Source: Candidatus Lambdaproteobacteria bacterium RIFOXYD2_FULL_50_16 (GTDB lineage: Bacteria; SAR324; XYD2-FULL-50-16). Taken from it: DNA of 36,671 nt. Location of the stretch: positions 56,358 through 93,028 of the forward strand of contig MFNE01000052.1 of NCBI GenBank assembly GCA_001783695.1. The letters run 5' to 3'. Of this stretch, positions 10,864 through 18,102 are shown one piece after another (the first letter of the stretch is position 1; each line of letters opens with the position of its first letter). Under the pieces are notes generated by a model. It was given only the letters and a program-made list of their open reading frames with translations. It searched no databases and was not told the origin of the DNA. Both the position numbers and the translations under genes were made by a program.

Positions 10864-11499
10864 ATGATGTTGAACGGACTTATCGGCAAAAAAGCGGGCA
10901 TGTCTCAAGTCTTTAGCGAGGACGGGACCAGGATTCCGGTTACGGTTATCGAATTGGGCCCAGTCACGGTTACTCAGATTAAAACGGTTAAAGTGGACGG
11001 ATACGATGCGGTTCAAGTTGGCTATGACGAGCTTTCGCCAGCTAAAGCAAAAAATCTGTCTAAAGCTGTGTTAAATCACTTGGGCGAAAACAAGCCGGTC
11101 CGTCACTTGATGGAATTCCTGGCCAAAGGGGAAGTGCAAGTTGGTCAGTCTTTTGATGTAACCCTATTTGAAAAGGGCCAAAAGGTTGACGTTACCGGAA
11201 CGACCAAAGGTAAAGGTTTTGCAGGGGTTATCAAGCGCCACGGCTTCGGCGGTGGTCCCGGTGCACACGGACACCGATTCCACCGATCTACAGGTTCGAT
11301 TGGTCAGTCGGCTACCCCTTCGCGGGTTTGGAAAAACAAAAGAATGCCTGGTCACATGGGCAACGAAAAAATGACCGTTCAAAATTTGGAAGTGGTAGCC
11401 GTTCGGCCTGAACTAAATGCCATCTTAGTTAAGGGCGCCGTTCCTGGCCCCCAAGGTCGGCTGGTTGAGGTTAGGCACGCGATCAAAGCACCCAAGTAG
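10864..11499 (+). CDS. rplC: 50S ribosomal protein L3
   Basis: This 211-residue protein is the normal bacterial L3 length. L3 binds 23S rRNA near the peptidyl-transferase centre and is an early assembly protein. Seen: the N-terminal LIGKKAGMSQVF, GTTKGKGFAGVIKRHGFGGG, then GSIGQSATPSRVWKNKRMPG with the Gln that PrmB methylates in other bacteria, and HMGNEKMTVQNLEVV. The gene appears functional. ATG codons at 10864 and 10867 are both possible; AAAGGA lies just upstream and suits either. L3 genes normally sit second in the S10 operon between rpsJ and rplD. Here no ribosomal neighbour exists: a cytochrome gene precedes and a terminator follows. Confidence 0.97.
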   Translation: MMLNGLIGKKAGMSQVFSEDGTRIPVTVIELGPVTVTQIKTVKVDGYDAVQVGYDELSPAKAKNLSKAVLNHLGENKPVRHLMEFLAKGEVQVGQSFDVTLFEKGQKVDVTGTTKGKGFAGVIKRHGFGGGPGAHGHRFHRSTGSIGQSATPSRVWKNKRMPGHMGNEKMTVQNLEVVAVRPELNAILVKGAVPGPQGRLVEVRHAIKAPK

Positions 11500-11522
11500 C
11501 GGGTACTTTATTGAAAAAAATG

Positions 11523-11551
11523 AAGGCGACTCTAGGGTCGCCTTTTTTTTT
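11523..11551 (+). terminator. Rho-independent terminator of rplC
   Basis: The arms AAGGCGAC (11523-11530) and GTCGCCTT (11537-11544) pair perfectly over 8 bp with a TCTAGG loop, followed by an unbroken T run to 11551. It starts 24 bases after the rplC stop. Confidence 0.95.
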
Positions 11552-11673
11552 GCTTAAAATTTGGTTATTAATTAATATGGATATCTATCTGTATTCTATA
11601 TATATTAAAAATATAACTAATTTTAACGATGGTTTGCCAAAAACGGCGTCGCTGTAAAGCCGAATTTAGGCCT

Positions 11674-11701
11674 ACATAATATACCATATAGTATATTAAT
11701 A
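11674..11701. other. Candidate dif-like recombination site
   Basis: Eight-base arms TAATATAC (11677-11684) and GTATATTA (11691-11698) flank a 6-base centre CATATA, the spacing of Xer sites. In addition, 11674-11684 read on the minus strand is GTATATTATGT, identical over 11 bases to the centre-right part of the proteobacterial dif consensus. The other dif arm (GGTGCGCATAA) is not matched, and the two comparisons use different registers. Function is inferred. Confidence 0.35.
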
Positions 11702-11741
11702 AGTTTAAATGGGCCTTAGTTAAAAACAGGTGGTTTGCAGG

Positions 11742-11826
11742 GGTTAGTATTAAATTAGGTTCATTTTCCAGAATGCACCCCCTTTAAAAAGATCGAAAAA
11801 TTTCACACTTTATTCTGGTACTAACC
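11742..11826. repeat. Nested inverted repeat upstream of the recombinase
   Basis: The outer arms are GGTTAGTA (11742-11749) and TACTAACC (11819-11826), with inner arms CCAGAAT (11768-11774) and ATTCTGG (11812-11818). The right-hand arms are contiguous, so a 15-bp stem would form with an 18-base bulge on the left side and a 37-base loop. Either a structured single strand or a protein binding array could use it. Confidence 0.6.
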
Positions 11827-11889
11827 ACTTGACCCTCCCAAAAAATAGGTCGATTTATAGAGGTCTGTTGTCTGTGTAGATAATTGAAC

Positions 11890-11898
11890 TTATCCACA
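11890..11898 (+). promoter_or_regulatory. Single consensus DnaA box
   Basis: TTATCCACA matches the DnaA box consensus exactly, 45 bases before the recombinase ATG. No second box is seen nearby, so a regulatory or chance role is more likely than an origin. Confidence 0.4.
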
Positions 11899-11943
11899 CC
11901 TTTTACGGCTTAAATTTGGTTTTTGGGGCGGGGTGCTAAAAAC

Positions 11944-12912
11944 ATGGATTTAACAAGATTTGATTCTGGGGCGCTGTCGCTTCTAGGTCCTCAGGTGGCC
12001 CAAGAAACGAAACGGGAAAAAACCTGGGTTTCCATGGGCCAAGTGCCCCTAGCCGAAGCTCTGGAAGCCTGGCTTTATAATTTGGCCCCCCTTACCGCGA
12101 AAAGTTACCGGGCCGGCTTTAAGGCCTTAGAACAACGAGGTATTGTCAGTTTTGACGAAAATCTACAGAGGTTTTCGTTATTAAATCACGAACTTAAGGT
12201 AGATCAAATCAAGGCTGAACCCGGCTGGAGTGAGGCCACAAGGCAGGCTCGAGCGGCGGCGTACATCTCTTTTACTGGATTTTTGCAGCGTCGCACGGCC
12301 GGTCTCATTACCAAGGCTCAGTCGAATCGGGAAGGGGCAAACAAAACCTTTTTTAAGATTCGTGAAAAAGTTAAAACCCCCGCTTTAGATCCAGAGCAAA
12401 CCAAGGCTTTTTTTTCTGCCTTGGACCAGCTCAACCCTAGAGATGGATTAATTGGCAAATTAATTCTTCAAGGAGGGAAACGGAAAGGGGAGGTTTTAGG
12501 GGTTTTAATTGAGCAAATCGATTATAAAAACAACAGAATTTCCTTTGTTCAATCGAAAACAAAAGGGATGATCAAAGAAACGATTATCACCTATCCCGCC
12601 TTCTTAATGGCTGAATTACAGACTTATATTGCCGGGCGGAAGCAGGGTTTATGTTTTATCAGCCAAAATGGCCGTCGGTTAGCTCCCAATCAAATTGACC
12701 GAAATTTCAAAAAAGCTGGGGCGTTAGCAGGAATCCCTTTTGTGGTTTCACCCCATGTTCTTAGGGTCACCTTAGTCACAAGGTTAAAAGAGTATAAGGT
12801 GCAAGACTCTGATATTATTAAAATAACCGGACACGCCAGCCCGGTCCAATTACTGGCATACGACAAAACAAACCCTGCGGACAATGCCAGCGCACGTTTT
12901 AACTTAGTTTAA
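11944..12912 (+). CDS. Tyrosine site-specific recombinase (Xer/integrase superfamily)
   Basis: This 322-residue protein has an N-terminal SAM-like DNA-binding domain (about 30-125) and a C-terminal catalytic domain. All catalytic residues are visible: Arg in GGKRKGEVLGV (about 180), Lys in SKTKG (about 205-207), His and Arg in SPHVLRVT (about 271 and 274), His in ITGHAS (about 297) and the nucleophile Tyr in LLAYDKT (about 306). The signature blocks are divergent from XerC/XerD, so a gene symbol is not justified. No other phage or transposon gene is adjacent, which favours a solitary Xer-like role over a prophage integrase. The ATG at 11944 is chosen; an upstream TTG (11923) would add seven residues with no better binding site. 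Confidence 0.9.
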   Translation: MDLTRFDSGALSLLGPQVAQETKREKTWVSMGQVPLAEALEAWLYNLAPLTAKSYRAGFKALEQRGIVSFDENLQRFSLLNHELKVDQIKAEPGWSEATRQARAAAYISFTGFLQRRTAGLITKAQSNREGANKTFFKIREKVKTPALDPEQTKAFFSALDQLNPRDGLIGKLILQGGKRKGEVLGVLIEQIDYKNNRISFVQSKTKGMIKETIITYPAFLMAELQTYIAGRKQGLCFISQNGRRLAPNQIDRNFKKAGALAGIPFVVSPHVLRVTLVTRLKEYKVQDSDIIKITGHASPVQLLAYDKTNPADNASARFNLV

Positions 12913-12937
12913 AAATTACAATTTTGAAAATCTCATT

Positions 12938-13321
12938 TTAATTATCCAGTCGCTTACCTAATAAAATCGAGTAATAGCGAACCGTTGAGGGTGCATGTGC
13001 GATCAAGGATGACCCAATTAAAATTCCGGTTAGTGCATAAAATCGATAGTTTTCGAAAAACGGAATGCATAATAATATTAGAATCTTTGCCAAGATTACT
13101 AACCCCCGATTTTGCAATAGCCAGTTTATTTTTTGTAAGAAAAAAAGGCCCATCATCGCCGTTCCGGTTATCCCGACGAACGCTAAATAAAGCGATAATT
13201 GTTCAGAATTAATTCCCCAAAACACCCCTCCCAAATACAGGGAAAAAGCCAAAATATGAGCGCTTCTCACCCCAATACGTAACCACCTGACGATTCCTCG
13301 ATCCAGTTTTTTTTCTGCCAT
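12938..13321 (-). CDS. Small integral membrane protein of unknown function
   Basis: This 127-residue protein has about four hydrophobic segments: HILAFSLYLGGVFW (about 22-35), LYLAFVGITGTAMMGLFFL (about 44-62), LVILAKILILLCIPFF (about 74-89) and ALTGILIGSSLIAHA (about 95-109). The termini are charged (MAEKKLDRG, GKRLDN). I recognise no family; the RVxSAHILA start recalls cytochrome b- or CopD-like membrane proteins, but I see no paired heme His pattern. It starts 8 bases after the glutamate dehydrogenase stop with an AGGAT ribosome site, so it is probably co-transcribed with that gene. Confidence 0.75.
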   Translation of the reverse strand: MAEKKLDRGIVRWLRIGVRSAHILAFSLYLGGVFWGINSEQLSLYLAFVGITGTAMMGLFFLQKINWLLQNRGLVILAKILILLCIPFFENYRFYALTGILIGSSLIAHAPSTVRYYSILLGKRLDN

Positions 13322-13329
13322 ATTAAATC

Positions 13330-16300
13330 CTATTCAAGCAGCGATTCGATCTCGCCCAAGATAACCGCAACTGAGGCTAGTGACTTATTTTTATCGGCGT
13401 TAAACTCTTGAAACGCTCGTTTAACCGTCTGTATTTTTGCCGTATTTTGTGAGATAAAGGTTTTGAATCCTTGGATAGGTTGTTCTGGATCTTTGGAAAC
13501 AATTGCCGAAAGTAAGGCTTCAGAAAGGGTCTGGCATCGCCGGATTAAAAGGCCCCGGTGACGCCGTTCCCAGTTCAGGTCCAGTCTAAGTTGCATCAAA
13601 ACCTTACTTAATGGTTCCATCGTAAAATGGGTTTCCAAGGCTTGGGTTAGTTCGAGGCAATCTTTCATAGAAATCCCTAATTTCGCTTTTAGGGCAATGC
13701 TAGATAGACTAGAGTGGAGAAGGGACAATTGGCTAAATTCTTTAGCCAGGTCCTCGTCTAACCCTCGTTGGGCCGCTCGGTCCAATTGCTGGTAATATCC
13801 TTTTAATTCTGCTGGGCTAAGGCTTAAAAACACCAATCTTTTATAGTCGTTTAGGGGCTCCTGGTACTGGTCGGCCATGGACCAGTCGGGGGTTTGGTGA
13901 TGTAGTAAAAGATTAAATACCTGGGTGAACAAGAAGTCTTCAATTTCGATTAATAACTCATAGGCCAGGGTTATATTAGACTGGCCAAATTGCACTAAAA
14001 TATCTTTTCTTAGGGTGCCAAGTCCAAAGAGTTGGTCCGCTGTGTAGTACGCAACCAAGAGATCAGATGGTTTTATTTCTATCAGTTCTTGCATTCGCGC
14101 TAACAAGGTTACCCCTGCTTGATTAATCACTTGATTAATTAGCATAGTACCCACAATCTCACGGTAGAGCGGATGGTCCGTTGTGTCATATTTTGTCACT
14201 AAAGTGTCTGGAAAATAGGACTGATAGAGCGGTATCAAATGGGGGTCGTCAAGCCGGTCCCTTTCTGACATCGCCTTTTTATATAAAAACATTTTGGTGT
14301 AACTAAGGACCACCGCCAAGTCGGGTCGGGGAACCCCATGGCCAGAAAGGTTGTACTCTAAAAGTTTTTCGTTGCTGCTCAAACGCTCGGTGCGTCGGTT
14401 TAGCAAACCAGTGGAAACTAACTGCTCAATCCAAGTGGTAAACGGATAAATGTCGGTTTTAGAGCGAAGCTGGTCCATGGCTAAAACTCGGCCCTGTTCC
14501 TGATTGTGGCAGATTACCGCCTGCCCAATCACCTCCGTCAGGCTGGCTAAGAGTGAGTCGCGTTCTTTGACGCGATCAATTAGCCCTTTGTCAATAAGTC
14601 GGTCCACCAAGATCTTCAGGTTAACCTCATGGTCTGAGGTGTCCACGCCAGCGGAGTTATCAATGGCATCTGTATTAATCGAGCCTCCCTCTAAGTCAAA
14701 TTCGACGCGCCCCTCTTGGGTGAATCCTAGATTGCCCCCCTCGCCGACCACTTTAGCCCGAAGTTCTTTGGCCGTAATCCGCACCGAGTCGTTACTTGGG
14801 TCCGCAACCAGGCTATCTGGTTCGCCTGAAGATTTTACATAAGTGCCAATTCCGCCGTTCCATAATAGGTCCACCGGGGCTTTTAATAAAAGTTTGACTA
14901 GTTCCTCACCAGTTGCGCTGGATTGATTAGTATTTAAGACCTCCTGGATTTTATGATTTAGATCGATGGTTTTGGCAGAGCGTTCAAATACGCCCCCGCC
15001 TTCCGAGATTAAATCAAGCTGGTAATCGGTCCAGGAACTGCCAGGGGTATGAAACAAGCGGTGTCGCTCGCCCCAACTGACCTCTGGGTTTGGGTTTGGG
15101 TCTAAGAAAATATGGACATGATTAAAGGCGCCAACTAACTTGATGTGTTTTGAAAGCAACATTCCATTGCCAAAAACATCTCCGGCCATATCGCCAATTC
15201 CAATCACCCTAAAGTCTTCAGACTGGATGTTTTTGCCTAACTCTAAAAAATGCAACTTTATACATTCCCAGGCCCCTCTGGCGGTTATGCCCATCTTTTT
15301 GTGGTCATAACCTAACGAGCCGCCAGAAGCAAAGGCATCCCCTAACCAATGGCCCCGCGCTTGGGAAACCAAGTTTGCTTGATCAGAAAGGTGGGCGGTG
15401 CCTTTGTCGGCGGCCACCACTAGGTAAGGGTCAAACCCATCAAAGGCTTTGATCCCTTCGGGGTGGACCGGTCTTCCCCCCACTAGATTGTCGGTCAAAC
15501 TTAACAGGCTGTGCATAAAGTGGGTATATTGCCTTCGGCCTTCCTCTAAAAAGGCCTGCCGGTTGGGCTGCGGGCGTTTGGTGATAAATCCGCCTTTGGA
15601 ACCCTCGGGTACAATCACCACGTTTTTCATCATCTGGGTTTTCATTAAACCCAACACCTCGGTTCGAAAATCGTCAAAGCGGTCAGAATGGCGAATTCCG
15701 CCACGGGCAATCAAAGCGCCTCTAAGGTGAATCCCCTCCATATGCGGGCCATGTACGTAAATCTCGTACATAGGCTTGGGTAAAGGCATATATTCCACTT
15801 GCCCTGAATTAACCTTGATCGCAAGGCAGGCCTCACCGCGCAAGGTAAAGTAGTTTGTGCGTATTGTGGCCCAAAAAAGGTTAAGCAGGTTTCGCAAAAT
15901 TATATCTTCTTGGACCGTTTTGACTTTAAATATCTCCTGGACGACCTGTTGGCGCAGTTCCTCAGGTTCTAAAAGGTCTGTGTTTGGGCTTAATTTTTGA
16001 ACAAAATAGGCGAGCAACGCCTTAACCGCTTCTGGGTTTCCGAGCAAACAGCGATTTATGGTCTCCCGCTGGTAAGGCGTGCCAATTTGCTGATAATAGT
16101 TGCGATACAAAATAAAAAGATCAATCTCTTCAAGCCCTAAGCCAGTTGTAAACAAAAGGCCATTTAGTGGGTCTGATTCCGCTTGGTTATTAAGCACCGC
16201 CAGCAAAATTTGTTGGGCTTTGGCGCAAATTTGACTAGATTGTTCGGGTTTAATGAAGCGGTGTTTAACCTGAAACTGATAAAGGTAATAGGGACCTTCT

Positions 16301-18102
16301 GGGAGTTGGCAAACAAAGGTATTTTCGTCTAAAATAACCATCTCCAACTTGTGTAAATGGGGGATCAGTTGGCTTAGACTAAGGGGGTCCTTGAGGTAAA
16401 AAAACAGATTGGACTGTTCTCCACTTTCCCCTTGAGGTCGCAGTTCGACCTGTAACCCATCTTTTCGAAGGGCTTCGAATTGGTCGATATCTTTTAGCGC
16501 CTCTTGTGGCGAAAACAGGGCCTGAAAATGTTTATCAAAAGCGTTTTTGTAACTTTTAACGAGGGAAAGGCCGGTTTCTCCTTTATCGGCCAAAGCTAAT
16601 TCTAGCTGGTCTTCCCAGCTTTGGGTTTGGTCGTCTAGCCAAGTTTCAAGAACAGAAGGCTCAAACGTTTCACCCAGCCCAGGGTGGCCCTCTGGAAGCC
16701 AATACACGTGGTGGCTATAGACGTTTCGGTTAAAGGTGAAGAAGTATTCTAGTTCAGGTGCTAGGCCTAATAGCGCACTAAGCTTAGCGGTGATTTGCGC
16801 AAAAATAGCCGGGCTAAACCGGCGGTTGGCTAGGCAGAAAGTAAACCGCAGGTAGTCGCGGCGCGGGTCTTGGTAGAGATATAACCTAGCGTTGTGAAAG
16901 GCCCGAATAAATTGGACTTGGTCTAAAAGGTTACGCATTTCATCGAGGTCCAAGCGAAATAATTCAGCCTTGGGCATTTCACCAAAAAACTGTACCGCTT
17001 CGTCAAAGGCATGTGCATCGGGACTCCCGCCGAAATCTAAAGCGACTGTTTTCACCTTTTGGCGTGCGACAGGAATAGTCAGCGCACCGGCCTTGGATGC
17101 TTGACGGGTAAACATCACTAAAAAATAGACCAAAATAGAACGTCCCTCTGCGTCAAAACGTCGCGACAAAATTAACTGGATTCGTTCTCGCCGATGGACT
17201 TGGCTAACCTGCTCTAGTTCAAAGAAATTTAAGCCCAGGCGGGAGGTGATAAAATAACCCCCAAGTTTAGATAAAGCCTTGGGTAGTTCAGGGTCTTTGG
17301 CCTCGGACCAAATTCGGCAGAGTCCCAAGGACTGGCCCATTTGCAAGGCGGTCAACTCTTTAAGTTGAATCTCATAAATTTCAGTATAACCCATTAAAAT
17401 ACAGTTCCCTTGAACCAGCCATTCAAATAATTGGCATCGCTCCTGGTGGAGTTCAAGGGGTTCCTGGTTTTTAAAGGGTATTTGAGCCAGGTGATCCATC
17501 TGCGCCTTGACTTTCAAAAAATCACCGGTGACCGCAAAAACCTCGTCAAAGGTTCGCCGAAGATTGCTTTCTAACCCGGCCAGGTCTTCTAACGCGAAGT
17601 CGCGCAGGACGAAGGTGATCAAATTTAAAGGCGGGGTTTGGGTCCTAATTGAGGCATCCGTATAAACCCCTTTTATCCCGTTTGGGTCTTGCTCTAGGTG
17701 GATTACGGGATGGTTAAAAAAGGACAGTCGATAGTTGCGTTCCTCAATAAATTCAATCAATGAATCTATTAAAAAATGGCGGCTAGTGGTTACCAAATCG
17801 ACTTGCACAAAACCTCGTCCCCAATTAGGGGTCAAGGATAAATCGCCAAACCGCATTAAATAGGGCTCACCCTGATAAACCTTTAAAAGTTCCAGGCTAC
17901 CTTGGGCGACCTCGGCGGCCTTGCCGACCTCGAGTTCGCGTAAATGTTGGGTATTAAGATTGCTATAAAAGAGAGAGCCTAGCTGATAAACTAGGTCTTT
18001 GTGAGCCGGTGGATTGAGATCTAACCACTCTTTAAGCTCGGCTCGCCGTTGGCTTAAGAGCTTAATCTTGATCATAGAAATTGAATCTTGTCCTGGGCCC
18101 AT
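13330..18102 (-). CDS. NAD-specific glutamate dehydrogenase, large (~180 kDa) class
   Basis: This 1590-residue protein is the full length of the L-180 class. It converts glutamate to 2-oxoglutarate and ammonium with NAD, feeding carbon into the TCA cycle. Residues about 1-700 form the long N-terminal regulatory region. The catalytic core includes RGGIRHSDRFDDFRTEVLG at about 795-815 and IVPEGSKGGF at about 830, then VGIGDMAGDVFGNGML-like and WNGGIGTYVKSS blocks; the C-terminal region is helical. The start at 18102 is well supported by an AGGAG site 6 bases upstream. A stem-loop occupies the 50 bases between the preceding hydrolase stop and this ribosome site. Nothing looks broken. Confidence 0.95.
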   Translation of the reverse strand: MGPGQDSISMIKIKLLSQRRAELKEWLDLNPPAHKDLVYQLGSLFYSNLNTQHLRELEVGKAAEVAQGSLELLKVYQGEPYLMRFGDLSLTPNWGRGFVQVDLVTTSRHFLIDSLIEFIEERNYRLSFFNHPVIHLEQDPNGIKGVYTDASIRTQTPPLNLITFVLRDFALEDLAGLESNLRRTFDEVFAVTGDFLKVKAQMDHLAQIPFKNQEPLELHQERCQLFEWLVQGNCILMGYTEIYEIQLKELTALQMGQSLGLCRIWSEAKDPELPKALSKLGGYFITSRLGLNFFELEQVSQVHRRERIQLILSRRFDAEGRSILVYFLVMFTRQASKAGALTIPVARQKVKTVALDFGGSPDAHAFDEAVQFFGEMPKAELFRLDLDEMRNLLDQVQFIRAFHNARLYLYQDPRRDYLRFTFCLANRRFSPAIFAQITAKLSALLGLAPELEYFFTFNRNVYSHHVYWLPEGHPGLGETFEPSVLETWLDDQTQSWEDQLELALADKGETGLSLVKSYKNAFDKHFQALFSPQEALKDIDQFEALRKDGLQVELRPQGESGEQSNLFFYLKDPLSLSQLIPHLHKLEMVILDENTFVCQLPEGPYYLYQFQVKHRFIKPEQSSQICAKAQQILLAVLNNQAESDPLNGLLFTTGLGLEEIDLFILYRNYYQQIGTPYQRETINRCLLGNPEAVKALLAYFVQKLSPNTDLLEPEELRQQVVQEIFKVKTVQEDIILRNLLNLFWATIRTNYFTLRGEACLAIKVNSGQVEYMPLPKPMYEIYVHGPHMEGIHLRGALIARGGIRHSDRFDDFRTEVLGLMKTQMMKNVVIVPEGSKGGFITKRPQPNRQAFLEEGRRQYTHFMHSLLSLTDNLVGGRPVHPEGIKAFDGFDPYLVVAADKGTAHLSDQANLVSQARGHWLGDAFASGGSLGYDHKKMGITARGAWECIKLHFLELGKNIQSEDFRVIGIGDMAGDVFGNGMLLSKHIKLVGAFNHVHIFLDPNPNPEVSWGERHRLFHTPGSSWTDYQLDLISEGGGVFERSAKTIDLNHKIQEVLNTNQSSATGEELVKLLLKAPVDLLWNGGIGTYVKSSGEPDSLVADPSNDSVRITAKELRAKVVGEGGNLGFTQEGRVEFDLEGGSINTDAIDNSAGVDTSDHEVNLKILVDRLIDKGLIDRVKERDSLLASLTEVIGQAVICHNQEQGRVLAMDQLRSKTDIYPFTTWIEQLVSTGLLNRRTERLSSNEKLLEYNLSGHGVPRPDLAVVLSYTKMFLYKKAMSERDRLDDPHLIPLYQSYFPDTLVTKYDTTDHPLYREIVGTMLINQVINQAGVTLLARMQELIEIKPSDLLVAYYTADQLFGLGTLRKDILVQFGQSNITLAYELLIEIEDFLFTQVFNLLLHHQTPDWSMADQYQEPLNDYKRLVFLSLSPAELKGYYQQLDRAAQRGLDEDLAKEFSQLSLLHSSLSSIALKAKLGISMKDCLELTQALETHFTMEPLSKVLMQLRLDLNWERRHRGLLIRRCQTLSEALLSAIVSKDPEQPIQGFKTFISQNTAKIQTVKRAFQEFNADKNKSLASVAVILGEIESLLE

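Follow-up and report, generated by a model that had tools for sequence, protein, structure and literature searches.

A candidate single-recombinase Xer/dif module on the chromosomes of a SAR324 family, related to the Pgp7/8 proteins of chlamydial plasmids

What is the task of a solitary tyrosine recombinase gene on a bacterial chromosome when no phage genes surround it? The question is raised by a locus of Candidatus Lambdaproteobacteria bacterium RIFOXYD2_FULL_50_16 (SAR324), located in a stretch of 36,671 nucleotides (hereafter the window, meaning the whole stretch of DNA that was analysed) within contig C52 (121.7 kb), which belongs to a draft genome of 3.14 Mb that is 97.9% complete. A sequence-only reading had proposed a divergent one-protein Xer system with the recombination site beside the gene. 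While such a system is well supported, the site is a different one from the palindrome that was named. Together with the 28-bp palindrome at 11873-11900, the gene at 11944-12912 probably constitutes a chromosomal single-recombinase Xer/dif module of an uncultured SAR324 (Ca. Lambdaproteobacteria) family, a reading in which we place good confidence. The arguments for it are taken from the DNA: the gene with its catalytic residues, the site with its covariation, conservation and uniqueness, a terminus-like position and the absence of canonical Xer proteins. The relevant features of the window are as follows.

10864-11499, plus strand: rplC (ribosomal protein L3; TIGR03625, 255 bits), constant neighbour of the module, outside the proposed mechanism
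11677-11698: palindrome TAATATAC-CATATA-GTATATTA named in the sequence-only reading, present, without support as a recombination site
11873-11900, plus strand: candidate dif-like recombination site, 28 bp, 11-6-11, TGTGTAGATAA-TTGAAC-TTATCCACACC, proposed from conservation, uniqueness and arm covariation
11873-11883, plus strand: left half-site TGTGTAGATAA, 9/11 bases symmetric with the right half-site, inner ATAA fixed in the family sites
11884-11889, plus strand: 6-bp centre TTGAAC, the presumed crossover region by analogy with Xer systems, asymmetric, identical in genome G002, most relatives showing a related or reverse-complement version
11890-11900, plus strand: right half-site TTATCCACACC, inner TTAT the same in every family site
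11944-12912, plus strand: gene of a 322-aa tyrosine recombinase (PF00589, 68.8 bits), the single-recombinase Xer candidate, with an orthologue in each of the 10 family genomes and in 0/42 others
12859-12861, plus strand: codon for Tyr306, which is predicted to be the nucleophile and is invariant in alignments A1 and A3

The recombinase ORF extends from TTG 11923 or ATG 11944 to 12912, the ATG being the better start when relatives are aligned. It stands alone behind about 440 bp without genes, as had been described, and neither phage nor other mobile genes lie beside it in the window; a comparison of the protein with phage records returned zero matches. The catalytic set (R-K-H-R-H-Y) is complete (R180, K205, H271, R274, H297 and Y306) and invariant across 11 aligned homologues. 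When an AlphaFold model of the protein (mean pLDDT 83; pTM 0.55, domain arrangement uncertain) was compared with the PDB, XerA and XerH ranked first among solved structures. Six further tyrosine recombinases are encoded in the home genome.

The sequence-only reading had placed the recombination site in a dif-like 8-6-8 palindrome at 11677-11698. This palindrome exists, as does ACATAATATAC at 11674-11684, the 11-mer shared with dif, and its likeness to dif is at chance level for AT-rich DNA. The 28-mer of this region agrees with E. coli dif at 17/28 positions, the best of shuffled windows reaching 17-19, and a search of the entire window for an E. coli-like dif likewise peaked at 17/28 (shuffled 17-19). 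Among dinucleotide shuffles of this AT-rich gene-free stretch, 2.2% contain a perfect 8-6-8 palindrome, 22% a perfect palindrome with any spacer of 0-12 and 1.7% an 11-mer shared with dif. Relatives possessing the recombinase do not keep the palindrome either, with best matches of 15-19/28 in nine of them and 17-20 in shuffled DNA. It is therefore rejected as the recombination site and may be an operator or a product of chance. The system itself does not fall with it, because a conserved 11-6-11 site, overlooked in the sequence-only reading, lies within the same gene-free stretch at 11873-11900.

The recombinase ATG lies 43 bp downstream of this 28-bp site. Side-by-side comparison of upstream DNA revealed such a site 5' of the orthologous recombinase gene in 10/10 family genomes, the start codon following after 8-75 bp in the members measured. 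Among the family sites, of which TGTGGTTATAA-CCTCAA-TTATAACCACA in G007 and TGTAGTTATAA-TTGAAG-TTATAACTACA in G001 are two examples, the inner ends are always ATAA...TTAT; the outer bases differ from site to site, with the two arms remaining matched. The centre deviates in G004 (GTGTGA). In the home genome the site is single-copy even with up to three mismatches allowed, and no second site of the same kind was found in the home contig. An ATAA-N6-TTAT core with at least 5/7 outer symmetry occurs in 0.2% of dinucleotide shuffles of the gene-free stretch. When eight family contigs totalling 1.33 Mb were scanned for this core, with symmetry required at 8/11 positions or more, the eight sites were recovered together with one extra, in G006. 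This core-bearing palindrome, TGATACAATAA-TTGAAT-TTATTGTATTA, lies on contig C22, some 42.1 kb to the left of the site, and could be the attachment site of an element exploiting the candidate Xer system.

The two arms of the site also covary. Across 18 sites (10 family, 8 chlamydial) both sides have changed in 9/11 pairs and 0/500 shuffles match the observed value, in a set for which symmetry had been part of the reason to choose the plasmid sites and some of the family sites. A more telling test, using only the seven outer bases of the ten family sites, gave a permutation P = 5e-5 (relatedness not removed). Members differ, even within one genus, in the direction in which the 6-bp centre points with respect to gene and skew (TTGAAS/TTGAGG versus the reverse complement), and site orientation relative to either was mixed when considered as a signal.

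Cumulative GC skew, a check suggested by the sequence-only reading, places the locus near the skew switch, with a peak at or near the 28-bp site. This is clearest in a 577-kb contig of G002 (Ca. Lambdaproteobacteria RIFOXYD2_FULL_56_26), where skew over 200 kb is +0.026 on the left and -0.024 on the right and just 0.7% of positions exceed the cumulative skew of the site, the absolute maximum being 31 kb off on a plateau. G005 is consistent with this, its maximum being 3 bp from the site on a contig that extends only 2.8 kb leftward, and the home contig shows a weak change from +0.0105 to -0.0216 (40 kb per side) with the maximum 7 kb away. The remaining contigs have the same skew sign over 40 kb (20 kb in G004) and are noisier; the family genomes are all drafts or MAGs, and skew is noisy in G003, G004, G006 and G008, while G007 is short of sequence on one side. 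Gene-strand bias was weak and adds little as terminus evidence.

Alternatively, the 28-bp palindrome could be an operator for the recombinase or another regulator, with the recombination site elsewhere or a role other than dimer resolution. Its place shortly before the start codon is operator-like, and Xer-type sites beside their own gene could serve both roles. An operator would, however, hardly be expected near a skew maximum, and the palindrome shares with dif and XerA sites the exact 11-6-11 spacing, the asymmetric centre and inner ends reading ATAA/TTAT. The home contig has no other palindrome of this type, and in pCLAVI the palindrome lies 3' of the gene. These points make the operator explanation unlikely.

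A chromosomal Xer/dif module is also in line with the distribution of the gene. Each of the ten genomes of the SAR324 family carries an orthologue (54-65% identity within the family) and none of 42 other genomes from the phylum does; G009 contains a second paralogue with no clear site beside the gene. In every family member checked the recombinase adjoins rplC, and in G000, G002 and G005 a glutamate dehydrogenase gene forms the other flank, with the module in either orientation between the two. Such constant chromosomal neighbours favour a vertically kept locus and disfavour a recent mobile element. An integrated mobile element or plasmid remnant, made up of an integrase and its attachment site, would fit the plasmid genes that are the closest relatives, the three relatives on IMG/VR contigs and the G009 paralogue without a site, but it is at odds with an orthologue in each family genome at the above identities, with the conserved flanking genes, with the absence of mobile genes beside the module in the window and with the lack of matches among phage records. 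We consider it very unlikely.

The surroundings of the module show some peculiarities of their own. Between rplC and the membrane-protein/glutamate dehydrogenase genes (compared were window 10864-18102, contig C38 of G005 and contig C15 of G001), it is inverted in place in some family members compared with the window and G002. In the family members checked, rplC is single-copy and adjoins the recombinase near the terminus; in the window it has no neighbour encoding another ribosomal protein, which is odd for an S10-operon gene.

Canonical xerC and xerD genes were sought elsewhere, as the sequence-only reading had advised, and nothing in the home genome comes near the curated cut-offs (best 91 bits versus 335). 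With the XerD model, best matches stay below 80 bits in G000 and G002 and reach E = 1.3e-14 in G005; with the XerC model, the best match in G000 is about 91 bits. Several other family members have proteins of 141-169 bits, and most sister-family genomes have an XerD/XerC-like protein of 214-261 bits with the XerD model. Judged by these scores, an XerC/XerD-like protein is not conserved in the SAR324 family, unlike in the sister families. No clear 28-bp dif-like site was detected in 4.5-kb stretches around the XerD-like genes of the latter. The family thus combines a dedicated recombinase with a lack of canonical XerC/XerD, with the exception of G006, in which XerC/XerD-like tandem recombinases (C14:118507-120359, 218-239 bits) follow a large ATPase-like ORF; this pair is probably a mobile element. 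That another tyrosine recombinase, e.g. the 309-aa protein at C34:16569-17495, is the chromosomal Xer and the module has some other role can be set aside as highly improbable: this protein is XerC-sized, is the best XerC-like protein of the genome (91 bits) and has relatives in most family members, but G002 (97% complete) has a match of just E = 7.5e-4 and G004 none, stops break the G001 copy, extra partial copies occur in G000 and G007, the distribution is the pattern of a mobile gene, and it is the window recombinase alone that occurs in every family genome and has a conserved site close to the skew switch.

FtsK_SpoIIIE was not detected in the home genome by profile search (control genomes were positive) and was found in 6/39 SAR324 relatives in searches of drafts, four of the six being family members. 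FtsK-gamma (PF09397) was absent from 39/39 genomes searched, with positive controls in 8/14. Given these negative profile searches of drafts, the system is probably FtsK-independent. The survey of 39 SAR324 relatives further suggests that canonical FtsK is largely missing from the phylum.

From these features we infer how the Xer/dif module could act. Two protomers would bind the two 11-bp half-sites, and when sister chromosomes become joined by recombination, two sites would synapse in a tetramer. Strand exchange by Tyr306 of the homotetrameric recombinase across the 6-bp centre would then turn the dimer into monomers, a reaction that probably does not need activation by FtsK, as in archaeal XerA.

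The nearest relatives outside the family are Pgp7/8-type "integrases" of chlamydial plasmids, most of them 37-50% identical, with homology spanning more than 90% of the protein length (Criblamydia 50%, Waddlia 48%, Simkania 45%, Rhabdochlamydia about 40%, pCLAVI 37%). In the tree, the SAR324 family and chlamydial proteins form one clade apart from XerD-like proteins. Its support of 100/99 refers to the joint clade; the inner branching order, and hence the direction of transfer, is not fixed by the tree. By homology and tree position, the recombinase is not descended from XerC/D and groups with the chlamydial Pgp7/8 proteins, with which it shares full-length homology and a common clade as expected of a family member. 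According to PMC7846284, Pgp7/8 have a viral origin and are found only on the plasmids and chromosomes of chlamydiae; this restriction does not hold for the chromosomal SAR324 members, which are universal in their family. Three further relatives are located on IMG/VR contigs. A 45% relative on a short contig labelled Clostridia (L119, 5310-6218) and an IMG/VR relative that groups inside the SAR324 clade (L143, 3001-3879) hint at further mobile carriers.

Most chlamydial homologues also have an 11-6-11 palindrome by the gene. In Waddlia it is TGTGTTTATAA-TGCTAG-TTATAAACACA, ending 13 bp ahead of the annotated start, and two Rhabdochlamydia plasmids carry TGTGTCTATAA-TTAGCC-TTATAGACACA and TGTGTCCATAA-TTAGTC-TTATGGACACA. 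Like palindromes occur in Criblamydia, two Parachlamydiaceae, Chlamydiifrater and pCLAVI (3' of the gene in the last), and in the complete Rhabdochlamydia porcellionis plasmid the palindrome is the sole one of its kind. No clear site was seen beside the genes of Simkania, L121 and the IMG/VR relative L142 or beside the G009 paralogue, and the palindromes of L143 and L144 are without the ATAA/TTAT core. The chlamydial palindromes suggest the same job on plasmids, namely multimer resolution, and the best explanation of the shared sequence features would be common ancestry of the SAR324 module with plasmid resolution modules. Perhaps a plasmid multimer-resolution module replaced an ancestral XerCD-type system in a lineage without FtsK-gamma, and the chlamydial Pgp7/8, rather than being integrases, resolve plasmids in an Xer-like manner at a dif-like site that has gone unrecognised; we lean towards this scenario with limited conviction. 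The main text of PMC7846284 mentions neither dimers nor Xer, and literature searches returned no paper combining chlamydial plasmid, integrase and dif, or SAR324 and XerC. New here are the apparent extension of the Pgp7/8 family to SAR324 chromosomes and the candidate site.

If the module is confirmed, it would represent a separate single-recombinase Xer lineage beside XerS, XerH, XerA and XerL and would clearly exemplify how a plasmid-type recombinase can hold a chromosomal post. A bacterial chromosome would possibly resolve its dimers without FtsK, and the control of timing would become testable. Pgp7/8, whose genes are widely conserved on chlamydial plasmids and carry no annotation beyond "integrases", would gain a testable function and a site.

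Among known systems, XerC/XerD/dif resembles the SAR324 module in its 28-bp 11-6-11 site, in similar inner arm ends and in the position near the terminus, but here a single recombinase is paired with a nearly symmetric site, FtsK-gamma was not found in the genomes searched, and the protein stays far below the cut-offs of TIGR02224 and TIGR02225 (44.5 and 19.8 bits versus 335 and 330). XerH/difH and XerS/difSL likewise consist of a single recombinase whose site adjoins the gene near the terminus (PMC5357621, PMC2731167). XerS, however, has 356 aa and an atypical 31-bp difSL, whereas the SAR324 protein has 322 aa and its 28-bp site is nearly symmetric, and the XerS model (NF003462) gives 27 bits versus a cut-off of 267; XerH gives 34.2 bits when PDB sequences are searched with a profile, in addition to its fold match. 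Archaeal XerA/dif is an FtsK-independent single-recombinase system with an 11-6-11 site (PMC5357621), and XerA is both the best NCBIfam match and the top PDB fold match of the recombinase, although the lineage differs and the score (NF040815, 71.2 bits) lies below the cut-off of 220. XerL/dif, reported from Legionellales only, combines a single recombinase with a strongly symmetric site, and xerL is plasmid-borne in Coxiella (PMC9765430). It is similar in all three respects, including the plasmid-chromosome link, and is set apart by its published description, with the nucleophile at Y387/Y389 versus Y306 here. The Pgp7/8 proteins, finally, are homologous and in most cases have a palindrome by the gene, while the SAR324 module differs from them in being chromosomal, located near the terminus and universal in its family.
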